In this document: positions 2,899-9,599 of the stretch, piece by piece
How the letters are laid out: every line of letters starts with the position of its first letter
How positions within the stretch are numbered: position 1 is the stretch's first letter
From: Acidobacteriaceae bacterium
Lineage (GTDB): Bacteria > Acidobacteriota > Terriglobia > Bryobacterales > Bryobacteraceae
DNA: 52,271 bases
Direction: 5' to 3'
NCBI GenBank assembly: GCA_020247055.1
Contig: JADCJL010000153.1
Span: 1 to 52,271 of the forward strand
Program-made: the position numbers and the translations under genes
Notes under the pieces: generated by a model
The model's database searches: none
Told to the model about the DNA's origin: nothing
What the model saw: only the letters and a program-made list of their open reading frames with translations

Positions 2899-3927
2899 TC
2901 AGGACTGTTGGGGTGCGGGGATGGGGTAGTACTCCAGGCGGACCCAGCCTGGTACGGTTCCTGGCTCTCCGCCCAGGTAGAAGATGCGCTGCGATTTGGG
3001 AAACGGGAACGATGAGGCCAGGGCGCGGCGGTAGGCAGGGATCGCGTCGAGAAGGGGCCGGGCGGCGGCAAGGCGCGGGCCGCCGCCCACCGATTTCGAC
3101 AGAAAGCCGCCGCCCCAGCCCAGGTTCAACAGACAGCCGCTGCCGGCTTCGACCTGAGCCAGAGTCTGCGCGAGCCGCCCTAACCGGTGGGTGGCCGCGA
3201 ACTCCCGCTGGCGGGCGAGCAGGGAAGCCGATTGCGCGGTGACGGCGGCAAATTCGGCTGCCCAATCCCCGGTGACGGTGCCGCGTCCCCGGAAGACGGT
3301 GCCGGGGGCGGCGCATTCGACAAAGGCCGGGGCGGGTTTCCAGCGGAGTTCGGGGCCGCCGGGCTTGGCCGGGGTGGCGACGCGGGCGTAGTAGACGCGG
3401 TAGGAGTCGCCCGCCTCCGGGGCGCCATCGCCGAGCCGCCAGCCGCGCAGCAGTTTCGCGGCACTCATATTGCGAAACGAAGCCAACTGCTCCGGGGGGA
3501 GTTGGGCGGCGAGCAGGGCCGTTTTGAGGGCACCTTTGAGAGCCGTGGCCGGCAGCAGTTTGCCACGAGGGCCGGTGCAGAAGGTTGGGATGAAGATTTC
3601 TTCATCTTTGGCCTGTTCCCAGAGCGGGACGAGACCGGGGTCTTCGAGCGGGATGCGGCGGACGGCGTAGGATTGGGCGTAGCCGCCCCAGTTTTTGAAC
3701 TCCAGGCGCCGGGCGCGGCCGAGTTCGGCGAGGTAGCCCTCCATGCGGGGCGTACCGGCGAGGCGGCGGAAGATGAGGCTCTGGTCGAGCACGTTGACCT
3801 GGTCCTTCCAAACCATATAGTCGATGGGGGCGAGGCGCTTGCCGTCGCCTACCAGGGTGGGGGTGAGGATGGTGAGGCGCCACTCGATGGGGAAGGGGGG
3901 CGGGGTGGCCGCGGGAGGAGTGCTCAT
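2899..3927 (-). CDS. csm5: Type III-A CRISPR RAMP protein Csm5
   Basis: A 342-residue RAMP protein, last in the csm operon. It opens with the RAMP strand typical of Csm5 (WRLTILTPTLVGDG, about residues 16-29), then IDYMVW, and a mid-protein segment LLPATALKGALKTALL (about 145-160) that matches the family's IPGSSLKGALRTAL. The C-terminal half has the Gly-rich NLGWGGGFLSKSVGG loop. Csm5 caps the head of the Csm backbone and helps crRNA maturation. The ATG (3925-3927) overlaps the csm4 stop as ATGA, so the longer open frame upstream is not used. Assignment rests on order and motifs; sequence conservation in this subunit is low. Confidence 0.83.
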   Translation of the reverse strand: MSTPPAATPPPFPIEWRLTILTPTLVGDGKRLAPIDYMVWKDQVNVLDQSLIFRRLAGTPRMEGYLAELGRARRLEFKNWGGYAQSYAVRRIPLEDPGLVPLWEQAKDEEIFIPTFCTGPRGKLLPATALKGALKTALLAAQLPPEQLASFRNMSAAKLLRGWRLGDGAPEAGDSYRVYYARVATPAKPGGPELRWKPAPAFVECAAPGTVFRGRGTVTGDWAAEFAAVTAQSASLLARQREFAATHRLGRLAQTLAQVEAGSGCLLNLGWGGGFLSKSVGGGPRLAAARPLLDAIPAYRRALASSFPFPKSQRIFYLGGEPGTVPGWVRLEYYPIPAPQQS

Positions 3928-4835
3928 AGGGCCACCGCCACGGCGAGGCCGTTCCGGTAGACGGGGTGGTCCCAGCCGGCGGGGGCTACATTCTCGAGAG
4001 TTCCGGCGGGGGCTTGCGGGGCGAACAGGACGGAGCCTTCGCGGACGAGGCGCTGGGGGAGTTTGGCGGTGGTGGAGCCTTCGACCCAGCCGGAGCGGAC
4101 GGTGAGCTGGTAGGCGCCCTGGTCCCAGGCGATCTCCTCGCCCGGGGCGGGGGCGAACAGGCTGAGCAGCCACCACCCTTTCGAACCGTCGCCGGAGGAG
4201 CCGCGGCGGAGGAGGGCCTCGACGGAATCTCCGGTTTCTAACCGCACGGCGGCGCTGCCGCCCCAGCCGAGCGAGCGGTTGCCGCCGAGGCCGGAGTCGG
4301 CGAGCCAGCGCAGGGCGGCTTCGAGGCGGGGGCGCCAGAGTTCATCCGCGCAGAGGGCGAGGCCCCAGGCGCCGGCGCCTTCGGCGAACTGAATGCCGGA
4401 TTTGGGTCCGGCCCCTTTTTCGACGCGGAGCGGGCGGAAGGGGCCGCCGGCGCCGGCGCGGTCGGCGGCGAGGAGGCAGCCGGAGGCGGGGTCGAGCACC
4501 CAGCGGGATTCGACGAGACCTGGTTCGCTGAGCAGATCGCGAATGGCGGGCAGGGGCAGGAAGCGGACGAGTTTGGGCCGCAGACGCTGGAGGCCGTTGG
4601 GCGGGGGCCAGGCCGAGGCGGGCGGGGGGGCGAAGAGCGTGCCGTGCTGCCAGGGGAACAGAGAGGTGAGGCGGACGGCGGGGCCGGCGGCCAGAAACTC
4701 GGCGAGCCAGCCGAAGCGATCCATGGCCGCGCAGACGGCGCCGTAGAAGGTGTCGCTCGGGAGCAGGGAAGGGCCCGTGGGGGCCGCGGTCCACGCTCCG
4801 CGGGCTTCGAACCGGAACAGGATCGCCTGCGCCAT
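3924..4835 (-). CDS. csm4: Type III-A CRISPR RAMP protein Csm4
   Basis: A 303-residue Csm4-like protein. It starts MAQAILFRFE and carries the characteristic PSDTFYGAVCAAMDRFG segment (about residues 26-42), equivalent to the family's SDTLFSALCNA. Two Gly-rich loops follow: GLGGNRSLGWGG near residue 180 and the PVYRNGLAVAV C-terminus. Csm4 binds the 5' handle of the crRNA and anchors Cas10 in the complex. It starts four bases after the csm3 stop and overlaps csm5 by four bases. The open frame extends far upstream through csm3 only because of GC-rich coding; the internal ATG at 4833-4835 is the sensible start. Confidence 0.86.
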   Translation of the reverse strand: MAQAILFRFEARGAWTAAPTGPSLLPSDTFYGAVCAAMDRFGWLAEFLAAGPAVRLTSLFPWQHGTLFAPPPASAWPPPNGLQRLRPKLVRFLPLPAIRDLLSEPGLVESRWVLDPASGCLLAADRAGAGGPFRPLRVEKGAGPKSGIQFAEGAGAWGLALCADELWRPRLEAALRWLADSGLGGNRSLGWGGSAAVRLETGDSVEALLRRGSSGDGSKGWWLLSLFAPAPGEEIAWDQGAYQLTVRSGWVEGSTTAKLPQRLVREGSVLFAPQAPAGTLENVAPAGWDHPVYRNGLAVAVAL

Positions 4836-4839
4836 ACCG

Positions 4840-5670
4840 CTATTCCGCCAGGGTCGCGGCGAACTGTTCGCCGCGTACGAGGGTTTGCAGAGCGGCGAGG
4901 TCGCCGCCGGAGAGCAGTTCCACTTCGGCGTTTTCGCCGAGATAGAAGCCTTTGCCGCGCCAGGTGAGGCGGCAATCGGAAAAACGAACCCGGCCGCTGC
5001 CGCGGGAGCCGCCGCCGCCGAGGGCATCGTCTTCAAGGAGGCGGAGGCCCTGGGCGAGGAGGCCGGCGAGGGCCGCGTCGCCATCGGCGAGTTGATCGAG
5101 GACGAAGCGGACGCGGAAGCGAGCCCCGGCCGGGACCCGTTCGAGGGTGCGGGGATTGGCCTGGGCGGTGATGCGGTCGATGGCGTTCTCGCTTTTGACT
5201 TCGGTGAGTTCGTCGTCGAGGAACTCGCGCATGGGCGGGGTGATGGAGTCGAGGTCGAGGGGGGCGTCGTAGATGGTGAGGCGGGCGGGGGTGGCGGCGC
5301 GGCCGTCGAGGGCGTCGCCGCGGACGCGCTCCATGCGGTTGGGGCTACGGCCGAACAGGAGGCAGAGGGCGTCGTCGGGGCGGTCGCTCTGGTGGATGCG
5401 GACCTCCTGACCGCGGCGGCGGGAGAGGTAGACGAGTTCGTCGGGGGTGGTGAGTCCGTGGGCGTGCTCGAGCAGGCTGCGGAGGCGGCCGCGGAGCGAG
5501 GAGCCGGGGACGATGGGGCGGCCGAAGGCATCCTTGACGACGGGGTTATCGGCGCCGCCGATTTCGAGCGATCCTTTGCCGGCGCCGATGTGGAGGCCGG
5601 TTTCGCAGTGGAGCACCGCTTCGAGAATGAGTTTGCCGCGCAGACGCAGCGTGGGTTTGGCTTCGCTCAT
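4840..5670 (-). CDS. csm3: Type III-A CRISPR RAMP nuclease Csm3
   Basis: The best-conserved subunit here (276 aa). CETGLHIGAG (residues 22-31) leads to IGGADNPVVKD, in which Asp41 aligns with the catalytic Asp33 of characterised Csm3 proteins that cut target RNA at six-base intervals. IVPGSSLRGRLRSLLE follows, the canonical RAMP helix, then SENAIDRITAQANPRTLERV and GGSRGSGRVRF near the C-terminus. Csm3 forms the backbone filament, so target RNA cutting should be intact. It lies six bases after csm2 and four before csm4, clearly co-transcribed. Confidence 0.95.
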   Translation of the reverse strand: MSEAKPTLRLRGKLILEAVLHCETGLHIGAGKGSLEIGGADNPVVKDAFGRPIVPGSSLRGRLRSLLEHAHGLTTPDELVYLSRRRGQEVRIHQSDRPDDALCLLFGRSPNRMERVRGDALDGRAATPARLTIYDAPLDLDSITPPMREFLDDELTEVKSENAIDRITAQANPRTLERVPAGARFRVRFVLDQLADGDAALAGLLAQGLRLLEDDALGGGGSRGSGRVRFSDCRLTWRGKGFYLGENAEVELLSGGDLAALQTLVRGEQFAATLAE

Positions 5671-5676
5671 GGCTGG

Positions 5677-6123
5677 TTACTCGTTATAGGCAATGATGGC
5701 TTCAAACAGGTCGCGGAACCGCTCGTAGGCGGCGAGTTCATTCTTGCGGGTTACCTGGAGCAGGAGTTTTTCGAGCGGGTCCAGGCTGCGCAGCGAGTGG
5801 CGGGCGATGGTGTAGGCCAGACGGGCGCGGAACATGACGAACTGGTGCTGGCGTTCGGTTTCGGGGGCGCGGCAGGCGCGGCGGACGGCGCTGTAGAGGC
5901 GACGCAGCTGGCTGCGGGTGCCGGAGTCCATGTCGTGCAACCGGGTGACGAGCAGGTGCGCCTGGTTGTCGAGATAGAGACTGTCGGCGCACAGCTTGGC
6001 GAGGTCGATTTCAACGTTGGTTTCCTGGCGGGGACGGTCGCGGTCCCGGTCGTCGCGGCGCGGGGGGCGGCCACCGTCCCGGGGGGGCCGGTCATCGCGG
6101 CGCGGCTGTCTCTGTTCGGCCAT
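5677..6123 (-). CDS. csm2: Type III-A CRISPR small subunit Csm2 with charged N-terminal tail
   Basis: A 148-residue protein between cas10 and csm3, the usual place of csm2. Residues from about 37 onward look like the all-helical small subunit: ending FRDLFEAIIAYNE, with a FVMFRARLAYTIAR helix and HSLRSLDPLEKLL. Residues 1-36 are an extension rich in Arg, Asp and Pro (RRDD, PPRDGG, DRDRDRPRQ) that is probably disordered and could contact RNA. Csm2 lines the inner filament and contacts target RNA. The family is weakly conserved, so position carries much of the assignment. Confidence 0.82.
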   Translation of the reverse strand: MAEQRQPRRDDRPPRDGGRPPRRDDRDRDRPRQETNVEIDLAKLCADSLYLDNQAHLLVTRLHDMDSGTRSQLRRLYSAVRRACRAPETERQHQFVMFRARLAYTIARHSLRSLDPLEKLLLQVTRKNELAAYERFRDLFEAIIAYNE

Positions 6124-6144
6124 ATTCGCTCCTTACAAGAAATT

Positions 6145-7497
6145 TTACGAGGATGTTGCTTCGAGGCGTGCCCAGGCGAGCGCGACGTAACCGGTGGGGC
6201 GCAGTTGGCGGCGACCGGCGGCTTCGGCGGTGAGTTGGCTCAGCAGGGTATCCCATTGTTTGTCGAAGGCGTCGCTTTCGCGGACGTCGACGGCGCGGCG
6301 GAGGCGACGGTGGAGCCGCCAGGGCTTGTCGAGGGTGCGGCCGCGGCGGCGGGCCCGGGCGGAGGTGAGGTCGGCCCCGCCGGCGGGGTCGAGGTAGAAT
6401 CCTTCGAGTTCGTCGAGGAATTCGGGCGAGGCGTGGAAGCGGCTCAGCAGCTTGCGCATCTGCCCTTTGATTTCGACCGCTTCCTTTAGCTGGGCCCAAT
6501 CGAGGGTGCGCCCGAACAGCGAGATGGCGTTTTTGCCCGAGGCCTTGACGGCCTCAAGGGCTTCGAGGGAGCGGCTGTAGACGTCGGCCAGGCTTTCGCC
6601 GCGCCGGGCGTGGACGATGGCCATGGAGACGCTGCGGGAGGCGCCCTCGCGCTGTTCATCGAGCTGGCGCAACATCAGGCCGGCCACGCGGCGCATTTCG
6701 CGCGCCAAATCGAGCAGGGCGTCCCACGGGGCGGCGACGGCGAAATCGTCGCCACCGCTATAGAGCACGGTGACGCGGGAGGCGAACTCCGGGGTGGCGG
6801 CGACGCGGGCGAGTTCGCCGGCGACGAAGTTCTTGAAGGTCATCGACAGCTGCAGGTACTCTTCGGCGGTGGTGGCGGCCTGGAGGCGGGGGCCGACGTT
6901 GTCGAGATCGGCCGTGAGGACGCCCCAGCGCCGGGCGGGGGGCACGGTGGGGCTGACGGCGATCGGCAGCGGCCACTGGTGGGTGCCGGCGTCGGGGAGG
7001 AAGGCGGTGGGATCTTCGGGTGACCAGCCGACGTTGGCGGCGGGGCGGAGCGAGGCGGCGAGGGTATCGTAAGGAAACGGAGTGGCGCCGCCGGCGAGGA
7101 GGCCGAGGGGGAGACGCGGGGTATCGCGACGCTGGCGGAGGCCGATTTCGAGGCGCTTACGGATATCGGGCCAGGCGCCGAGGTTCTCGGTGGTGGCCCA
7201 GATGAGGCCGGCGCGGCCGTTGGTTACCGTGGAGACCCGTTCGGCGAGGGTGGAGAGAAAAGCCTCGGCGGCCGGGATGGAGGCCTCCGGGAGGACCAGC
7301 AGGAAGCGCCCGCCGGTGGCGGCGCCGAGCAGGAGGGGCGACAGGCCCAATTCGGCGAGCAGAGCCCGCGGGGCCATCTCGCCGAGCAGGGAGAACCAGT
7401 GACAACGGCTGAGGAAGGCTTCACCACCCAAGCCTTCTTCCGTGAGCAGGGCGTTGATTCCGAAAAATTTGGCTTGGAGGAAGACCTGGAGCGACAT
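6145..7497 (-). CDS. cas10: Cas10/Csm1 large subunit, compact form lacking HD domain
   Basis: Residues 9-70 resemble the first palm domain, including the GGRFLLVLPEA strand. LTADLDNVG (194-202) and YSGGDDFAV (246-254) mark the second palm; the GGDD catalytic motif (248-251) is intact, so cyclic oligoadenylate synthesis is plausible. The protein is only 450 aa, against about 750-850 for usual Cas10/Csm1. There is no N-terminal HD DNase domain, and the region between the palms has no cysteines where a zinc-binding insert is normally found (the only Cys is residue 32). The ATG at 7495-7497 is 46 bases from the divergent rluD-type start, leaving no room for a missing 5' part. First gene of the csm operon. 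Confidence 0.88.
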   Translation of the reverse strand: MSLQVFLQAKFFGINALLTEEGLGGEAFLSRCHWFSLLGEMAPRALLAELGLSPLLLGAATGGRFLLVLPEASIPAAEAFLSTLAERVSTVTNGRAGLIWATTENLGAWPDIRKRLEIGLRQRRDTPRLPLGLLAGGATPFPYDTLAASLRPAANVGWSPEDPTAFLPDAGTHQWPLPIAVSPTVPPARRWGVLTADLDNVGPRLQAATTAEEYLQLSMTFKNFVAGELARVAATPEFASRVTVLYSGGDDFAVAAPWDALLDLAREMRRVAGLMLRQLDEQREGASRSVSMAIVHARRGESLADVYSRSLEALEAVKASGKNAISLFGRTLDWAQLKEAVEIKGQMRKLLSRFHASPEFLDELEGFYLDPAGGADLTSARARRRGRTLDKPWRLHRRLRRAVDVRESDAFDKQWDTLLSQLTAEAAGRRQLRPTGYVALAWARLEATSS

Positions 7498-8395: not shown

Positions 8396-8471
8396 AAAGA
8401 TTTGCACTCTGAGTGTAAATCCCGGCATCTCCTGTAGACAGTGGGGAACCCCTCGCTGAGGAGATTTGAAA

Positions 8472-8957
8472 ATGAAAAAGATTGCTTTGTACGCGGCTCT
8501 GCTGGGCCTTCCTTTGTTTGTGACGGCGGGTCGGGCTTCGGCCGCCGACATTGTGGACACGGCCGTGGCGGCCGGTTCGTTTAAGACGCTGGTGGCGGCG
8601 GTGAAGGCCGCCGGACTGGTGGAGACCTTGAAGGGCGCGGGTCCTTTCACAGTATTTGCTCCCACGGACGAGGCGTTTGCCAAGCTGCCCGCCGGAACGC
8701 TCGATTCGCTGCTGAAGCCGGAGAATAAAGCCAAGCTGGCCGCGATCCTGACCTACCACGTGGTGGCGGGGAAGGTGATGGCGGCGGACGTGGTGAAGAT
8801 CAAGTCGGCCAAGTCTGTCCAGGGCGGCCCGATTGCCGTGAAGTCCAAAGGCGGGAAGGTCACGCTGAACGGGCTTTCGCAGGTAGTGAAGACGGACATT
8901 GGCACGGATAACGGCGTGATTCACGTGATCGATACCGTGATCCTGCCGAAGCTGTAA
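8472..8957 (+). CDS. Secreted fasciclin (FAS1) domain protein
   Basis: A 161-residue protein with a signal peptide (residues 1 to about 25, ending GRASAADI) and one complete FAS1 domain. Box H1 is visible as [17 protein letters not shown] and box H2 as [13 protein letters not shown], with a YH motif ([10 protein letters not shown]) between. FAS1 domains mediate adhesion or protein interaction in the envelope or outside the cell. GAGGAG eight bases before the ATG supports this start over an in-frame TTG six bases upstream. A strong terminator follows the stop, so this is probably a single-gene unit. Confidence 0.93.
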
Positions 8958-9071: not shown

Positions 9072-9599
9072 TTACTTCTTTTTGAGCCGCGAGCAGACCG
9101 CCGCGGTAGCTTCGTTATGCGCGGCGGGTTTGGGATCGGCGACGATCTCGATGATCTTCCCCTCCTTGTCAATCACGAAGGTGGTGCGGCTGGCGATGCC
9201 ACGCTCCTCCATCAGCACGCCGTAGGCCTTGGCCGTGGCGCGATTCGGGAAGTCGCTCAGCAGGGGGAACGCCAGACCCAGATCATCCGAGAACCGCTTG
9301 AGGGATGGGGCGGCGTCCACGCTGATACCGAACAGCTGGGTTTCCGACTCATTGATCGTTTGGATTCCAGCCTGGAATCCTTTCATTTCCGCCGTTCAAC
9401 CACCGGTAAACGCCAGCGGGAAGAAGGCAAGGACAACGTTTTGTTTGCCTTTGAAATCCGCGAGCGAGAACGATTTGCCGGGAACGGAGGAGGGCAGTTT
9501 CTCAAAGCCGGGAGCCATGTCGCCGACTTTGAGGTGGGTCTTTCCGCCCTGGGCAAGAAGCGCAGTGGCGGCGACCAGACTCAATAGTAGAGTTTTCAT
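9072..9599 (-). CDS. Secreted peroxiredoxin, probable selenoprotein (in-frame TGA = Sec68)
   Basis: One continuous reading frame of 176 codons, interrupted only by TGA at 9396-9398. Upstream are a signal peptide (MKTLLLSLVAATALLAQ), VGDMAPGFEKLP and VVLAFFPLAFTGG; downstream are TAEMKGFQAGI, the FGISVDAAPSLKRF segment and TFVIDKEGKI. The TGA falls exactly where AhpC/TSA peroxiredoxins have the peroxidatic Cys (TxxC), and no base is gained or lost. A hairpin meeting bacterial SECIS rules follows (separate entry). I therefore read residue 68 as selenocysteine; the product is 175 aa, periplasmic or exported, and reduces peroxides. Cys169 near the C-terminus could be a resolving residue. Standard gene callers would split or miss it. 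A nonsense mutation is the alternative. Confidence 0.88.
9362..9380 (-). promoter_or_regulatory. Predicted bacterial SECIS hairpin
   Basis: In the coding strand GGATTCCA-GGC-TGGAATCC forms a perfect eight-pair stem with a GGC loop. It begins 15 bases after the TGA, so the apical loop starts 23 bases downstream. Loop G residues, stem length and spacing all fit the published description of bSECIS elements that SelB recognises. Confidence 0.85.

Follow-up and report, generated by a model that had tools for sequence, protein, structure and literature searches.

A putatively exported, AhpE-like peroxiredoxin of Acidobacteriota predicted to contain selenocysteine at its peroxidatic position

The in-frame TGA and its conservation

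The window analyzed here is a 52,271-nucleotide stretch of an Acidobacteriaceae bacterium (contig JADCJL010000153.1, assembly GCA_020247055.1), and it carries on its minus strand a gene for an AhpE-like peroxiredoxin interrupted by a single TGA at codon 68 (Table 1). A preliminary description, made from the letters of the window, had proposed that this TGA encodes selenocysteine (Sec) in an exported enzyme; the feature that it delimited is real, although its strand had been left unstated. Translation from 9599 to 9072 with TGA read as Sec gives a continuous frame of 175 codons, the same on both sides of this sole break as had been claimed, and the sequence GGAGAGG lies a few bases 5’ of the start ATG. 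The residues around codon 68 are PLAFTGG-U-TAEM, and the peroxidatic Cys of homologues, including Mycobacterium tuberculosis AhpE, aligns exactly with the TGA, as predicted. We consider it very probable (roughly 0.9) that codon 68 is read as Sec in a working peroxiredoxin. Standard annotation may truncate such genes.

Table 1. Features of the predicted selenoprotein gene, in window coordinates.
Feature	Position	Strand	Comment
Selenoprotein gene, AhpE-like peroxiredoxin with putative signal peptide	9072..9599	minus	175 aa including Sec68
TAA stop codon	9072-9074	minus	
TGA codon 68, read as Sec, peroxidatic position	9396..9398	minus	aligns with the Cys found in AhpE and other homologues
Putative signal peptide MKTLLLSLVAATALLAQ, about residues 1-17	9549..9599	minus	N-terminal Lys, then hydrophobic stretch
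Hairpin resembling a bacterial Sec insertion sequence (bSECIS), 8 pairs, loop GGC	9362..9380	minus	begins 15 nt 3’ of the TGA
Codon of Cys169, candidate resolving Cys, C-terminal helix	9093..9095	minus	conserved among both Sec and Cys members of the clade

Codon 68 is TGA in 94 of 152 distinct homologous genes, Cys in 57 and CGC in one, and a gene with TGA at this position is present in 67 of the 81 genomes searched, the source genome included; in a few of these (e.g. G070, G074, G075 and G078) the TGA gene lies outside the main clade. A draw of 199 genomes across the phylum yielded strong matches (E ≤ 1e-25) in 52 and none that strong in 147. TGA is held by 50 of the 60 matches listed from this draw, and among the 40 loci that were fetched (the second set) 37 have TGA, all precisely at codon 68, and the other three have Cys. 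The preliminary description had suggested aligning the codon with homologues as a check on the residue; these have Cys or TGA at the site, and its identification as the peroxidatic position stands. The nearest named contigs, with 95-99% identity across the gene, belong to metagenome-assembled genomes titled Bryobacteraceae, Acidobacteria, Acidobacteriales or Ca. Sulfopaludibacter, and a plasmid search matched 318 records, every one of them below 60% identity.

In the codons 3’ of the TGA, comparison with five near relatives shows 8-35 synonymous versus 1-4 non-synonymous differences, and the downstream part is therefore translated and kept under purifying selection. A frame broken by TGA could also reflect a pseudogene, or a nonsense mutation recently acquired at the catalytic codon, and one relative (G017) does have a decayed-looking tandem second copy beside its Sec gene (L033:2191-2469), in which the Sec codon reads CGC and TAG comes soon after. 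However, the same TGA is conserved across many families of the phylum, the codons that follow it are under purifying selection, and the hairpin after it covaries; on this synonymous bias, conservation and covariation we reject gene decay as very improbable.

The downstream hairpin and the selenocysteine machinery

The eight-pair hairpin with a G-containing loop that had been reported 15 bases after the TGA is present as GGATTCCA-GGC-TGGAATCC (9380 to 9362; -11.1 kcal/mol). By itself it is indecisive, because its stability relative to shuffled sequences is mild (z -1.71, with 16 of 200 shuffles equally stable) and of the 1213 TGA triplets that the window contains, 40 are followed, at a distance of 10-20 nt, by the start of an eight-pair hairpin (G-U pairs allowed, loop of 3-7); its significance therefore comes from comparison across species and not from the single sequence. 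The first set comprises 82 distinct TGA genes, and across all of them there are 42 two-sided changes, compared with 13.1 after shuffling (0 of 500 shuffles as high), and sliding the arms drops the pairing from 79.4% to 26-39%. Two of the five covariation measures are weaker in these genes, with 30 of 500 shuffles as high for pairs with two-sided changes and 52 of 500 for further pair types. The 76 main-clade rows (alignment A1) contain 39 two-sided changes versus 10.2 after shuffling, with AU/UA, CG/UA and GC/CG swaps, and the 16 Cys relatives from this clade show no covariation signal.

All six inner pairs are kept in 64 of the 82 genes, five in 11, four in one and 0-2 in six, such that 75 retain five or six; the hairpin is found in one of the 16 same-clade Cys genes. 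Codon resampling under a fixed protein finds an unusually stable hairpin in 28 of 36 TGA genes versus 2 of 13 Cys genes. A hairpin of the kind looked for in bacterial selenoprotein genes is thus present after the TGA, and it covaries among the TGA homologues. Within the second set, 17 of the 37 TGA genes keep 5-6 pairs, and 13 belong to another clade, with the motif WFP(K/R)AFT(G/S)G-U-T..C and a different hairpin at the same place.

The preliminary description had proposed a search for selA, selB, selC (tRNA-Sec) and selD, whose absence it regarded as fatal to the Sec assignment. The source genome has all four, tRNA-Sec, SelA, SelB and SelD scoring over their cut-offs, and ARAGORN, applied to the tRNA-Sec locus only, reports a Sec-type tRNA with anticodon tca. 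The SelD gene (L024, G000:C339:12633-13553) itself contains an in-frame TGA, in the context KAAG-U-ASK, and SelD is predicted to be a selenoprotein too. A reassigned or suppressor tRNA reading UGA in place of the Sec machinery would equally leave the frame open, and this openness is the sole point in its favor; against it stand the Sec-type tRNA at that locus, the presence of Cys rather than Trp at codon 68 in relatives, and the hairpin that accompanies the TGA. Stop-codon reassignment is rejected on the Cys in relatives and the Sec-type tRNA, and we regard it as extremely improbable.

Across the genomes searched, selA is matched in 73 of 81 (E ≤ 1e-60) and tRNA-Sec in 75 of 81 (E ≤ 1e-7), although six of the latter are weak, near 1e-8, and may represent other tRNAs. 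The TGA form of the peroxiredoxin occurs in 63 of the 73 genomes with selA versus 4 of the 8 without it (Fisher p 0.027, uncorrected for kinship), and this co-occurrence is weak evidence. In G065, which carries the Cys form, selA is unmatched and the tRNA match is weak.

Several observations weigh against the assignment of codon 68 to Sec. Ten of the 73 selA-bearing genomes lack the TGA form, and the four genomes with a TGA gene but no selA match include two that are nearly complete (G034, 96%; G047, 99%) together with two that are incomplete (G005, 83%; G008, 62%). With the stricter filters applied in the tRNA search, tRNA-Sec is unmatched or only weakly matched (~1e-8) in six genomes with a TGA gene (G018, G023, G034, G042, G049 and G051), and one without a match, G018, is 99% complete. 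The folding energy of a 54-nt segment does not separate TGA genes (mean -12.0 kcal/mol, n=39) from Cys genes (-12.4 kcal/mol, n=24) among rows of over 40% identity, and the two are told apart only by pairing at specific positions and by codon resampling. The six TGA rows of the first set that keep 0-2 of the inner pairs (L095, L166, L176, L177, L178 and L182, all outside the main clade) are exactly those omitted from A1, so that this alignment leans towards structure; the covariation result stands with all 82 rows restored. Seven of the 37 TGA loci in the second set have neither type of hairpin, and three of them (L189, L202 and L213) fold very weakly.

L095, on a contig titled Chloroflexi, has AFTGG-U but lacks a hairpin in the main-clade register. 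A second clade of Sec peroxiredoxins, with WFPKAFTGG-U-TAEC-like sequences (L166, L182, L204, L206, L208, L210, L211, L214, L215, L218, L221, L223, L224, L227 and L228), carries a Cys four residues beyond Sec and none at the C-terminal place; most members have a different, GC-rich hairpin at a similar distance from the TGA, and L212 and L219 are apparent Cys forms of this clade.

Family placement, leader and C-terminal cysteine

The protein matches the PF00578 AhpC-TSA domain (114.3 bits, cut-off 26) and has the peroxiredoxin motif Pxxx(T/S)xxC(U) plus Arg, as P61, T65, U68 and R138; R138 is present in 87 of 87 rows of alignment A4. M. tuberculosis AhpE is the best solved relative by sequence and is at the top of the fold search, where BcpB, Bcp1 and others come within 1 Z of it. 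Members of the AhpE cluster are reported to have Val or Ile directly before the peroxidatic Cys (PMC5302317). The window protein has Gly67 there, and Val or Ile is found in 2 of 94 Sec genes; with this Gly and the tie with BCP-type structures we dropped an outright assignment to AhpE, and use the name AhpE-like because of Gly67.

Peroxiredoxins with Sec were noted in the preliminary description as known from bacteria, and the TxxU peroxiredoxins are indeed an established selenoprotein family (PMC13188914, PMC1088965, PMC2398784, PMC1794560). The TxxU protein PrxU, for example that of Eubacterium acidaminophilum, shares with the window protein the PF00578 domain, the TxxU motif and Sec at the peroxidatic position, whereas the window protein differs in being AhpE-like and in having a signal-peptide-like start and a conserved C-terminal Cys. 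The NCBIfam PrxU model (NF040737) matches weakly, at 50.1 bits versus a cut-off of 270, and the PrxQ/BCP model (NF006960) at 73.8 versus 140 bits, with no Cys near U68. Other selenoproteins of the peroxiredoxin/thioredoxin type are listed as thiol peroxidase Prx-SUH and Prx-like UxxC (PMC13188914), but their Sec is differently placed (CxxU, UxxC) and the Prx-SUH model gives 47.5 bits versus a cut-off of 298. The Prx5 motif is given as P(G/A)A(F/Y)(T/S)(P/G)xC (PMC5302317). It is fitted by 32 of 94 Sec genes, whereas PLAFTGG-U of the window does not fit, and no Prx5 structure is among the best 50 rows of either fold search, which proves nothing about kinship with Prx5, a possibility that stands as a lead. 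In human PRDX5, an atypical 2-Cys enzyme, the resolving Cys lies about 104 residues after the peroxidatic Cys; the spacing from Sec to Cys169 in the window protein is 101.

The preliminary description also predicted a signal peptide of the general secretory pathway. A rule using hydropathy only, in which a positive residue is followed by a hydrophobic stretch, flags a signal-peptide-like leader in 84 of the 89 Sec genes that are complete and, within the motif group, in 14 of 16 complete Cys genes; a structure model has low confidence at residues 1-20 of the window protein. The leader-like start is supported by this crude rule, and export itself is what it would imply. The alternative that the selenoprotein remains cytoplasmic, its N-terminus being neither cleaved nor exported, draws on the five complete Sec genes that are not flagged and on the 4 of 41 other Cys homologues that are, which also counts against a signal peptide judged by hydropathy. 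On the other hand, a Lys or Arg and a hydrophobic stretch are kept while the sequence of the stretch varies, and no leader is seen in 37 of those 41 Cys homologues. A cytoplasmic location therefore seems unlikely to us, and the peroxiredoxin is inferred to be exported. Exported selenoproteins exist, formate dehydrogenase N being one.

A feature overlooked in the preliminary description, as was the spread of the gene among relatives, is a conserved Cys that follows Sec by about 100 residues. Of the 89 complete Sec genes, 86 have a Cys 95-105 residues downstream, as do 15 of the 16 motif-group Cys genes, the lone Cys-gene exception (L186) being a PrxQ-like protein caught by the loose motif list. 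In A4, 78 of 87 rows have Cys in the Cys169 column, with V, L or I in the other nine, all outside the main clade, and a C-terminal Cys of this kind occurs in 22 of the 37 TGA genes in the second set. The structure model places Cys169 within a C-terminal helix (158-174). AhpE, which uses Cys where the window protein is predicted to use Sec, is classed as 1-Cys (PMC5811025, PMC8945050), and the nearest solved structures, of M. tuberculosis AhpE, are titled accordingly; the conserved second Cys therefore suggests a possible resolving step through a Se–S bond, with Cys169 as the candidate resolving residue.

We propose that SelB and Sec-tRNA(Sec) would decode UGA68 with the aid of the hairpin 15 nt downstream, as the machinery and the covariation suggest, and that the signal peptide would export the chain. 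Outside the cytoplasm the U68 selenolate, in a pocket of P61-xxx-T65-xx-U68 and R138, would be expected from the chemistry of the family to reduce peroxides and become a selenenic acid. Cys169, from one subunit or its neighbor, would then probably resolve this by forming a Se–S bond, and a periplasmic reductant would reopen it.

Alternatively, Sec is correctly assigned but the protein is an ordinary 1-Cys (1-Sec) peroxiredoxin, in which Cys169 serves structure or the contacts between subunits and Sec is resolved by a Dsb-type protein or a low-molecular-weight thiol. This accords with the 1-Cys status of AhpE, and sits less easily with the retention of Cys at that place in nearly all complete Sec genes and motif-group Cys genes; it is a serious possibility, if short of an even chance. 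The fuller account, of an exported AhpE-like lineage in many Acidobacteriota families that joins Sec to a Cys of the C-terminal helix by a Se–S bond, inside one subunit or across two, and has repeatedly switched between Sec and Cys in otherwise similar enzymes, we hold tentatively, at close to even odds; it would make the lineage an extracytoplasmic type of Sec/Cys peroxidase that our searches did not find described.

Sec/Cys switching and genomic context

A tree of 145 genes requires at least 13 changes between Sec and Cys labels, eight of them forced by well-supported branches, and gain and loss are not distinguishable in it. G030 has sister Sec and Cys copies in a single genome. L130 (G044) is a Cys (TGC) gene that keeps all eight hairpin pairs (L130:681-728), the only one of 16 Cys genes to have the hairpin; this is likely a relic, or fossil SECIS, of a recent change from Sec to Cys, and points to at least one loss of Sec. 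The switches, the sister copies in G030 and the relic hairpin together make a direct comparison of Sec with Cys possible, as a natural experiment, in an enzyme whose site of action is probably extracytoplasmic.

Acidobacteriota abound in soil, and their selenoproteins have received little attention in the literature cited here. One table counts four selenoproteins in three families for the phylum (PMC1794560) and another lists three in one species (PMC12013277). A literature search found no description of an exported AhpE-like selenoprotein, which does not prove that none exists, and searches on exported selenoproteins and on Solibacter returned nothing; a term search found no mention of ‘signal peptide’ in the main texts of PMC13188914, PMC1794560, PMC5029168, PMC12013277, PMC2398784 and PMC1088965. 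With the TxxU family itself known, what these searches failed to turn up is the predicted combination of an AhpE-like protein, a leader and a C-terminal Cys in many, though not all, Acidobacteriota.

Pfam identified no redox partner among nine scanned frames near the selenoprotein gene. Its convergent neighbor, on the plus strand (8466-8957), encodes a fasciclin-domain protein, and further along the minus strand there are type III CRISPR genes (3924-7497), with a Csm4 C-terminal domain at 3924-5531 and a Cas10/Cmr2 palm domain at 6145-7497.
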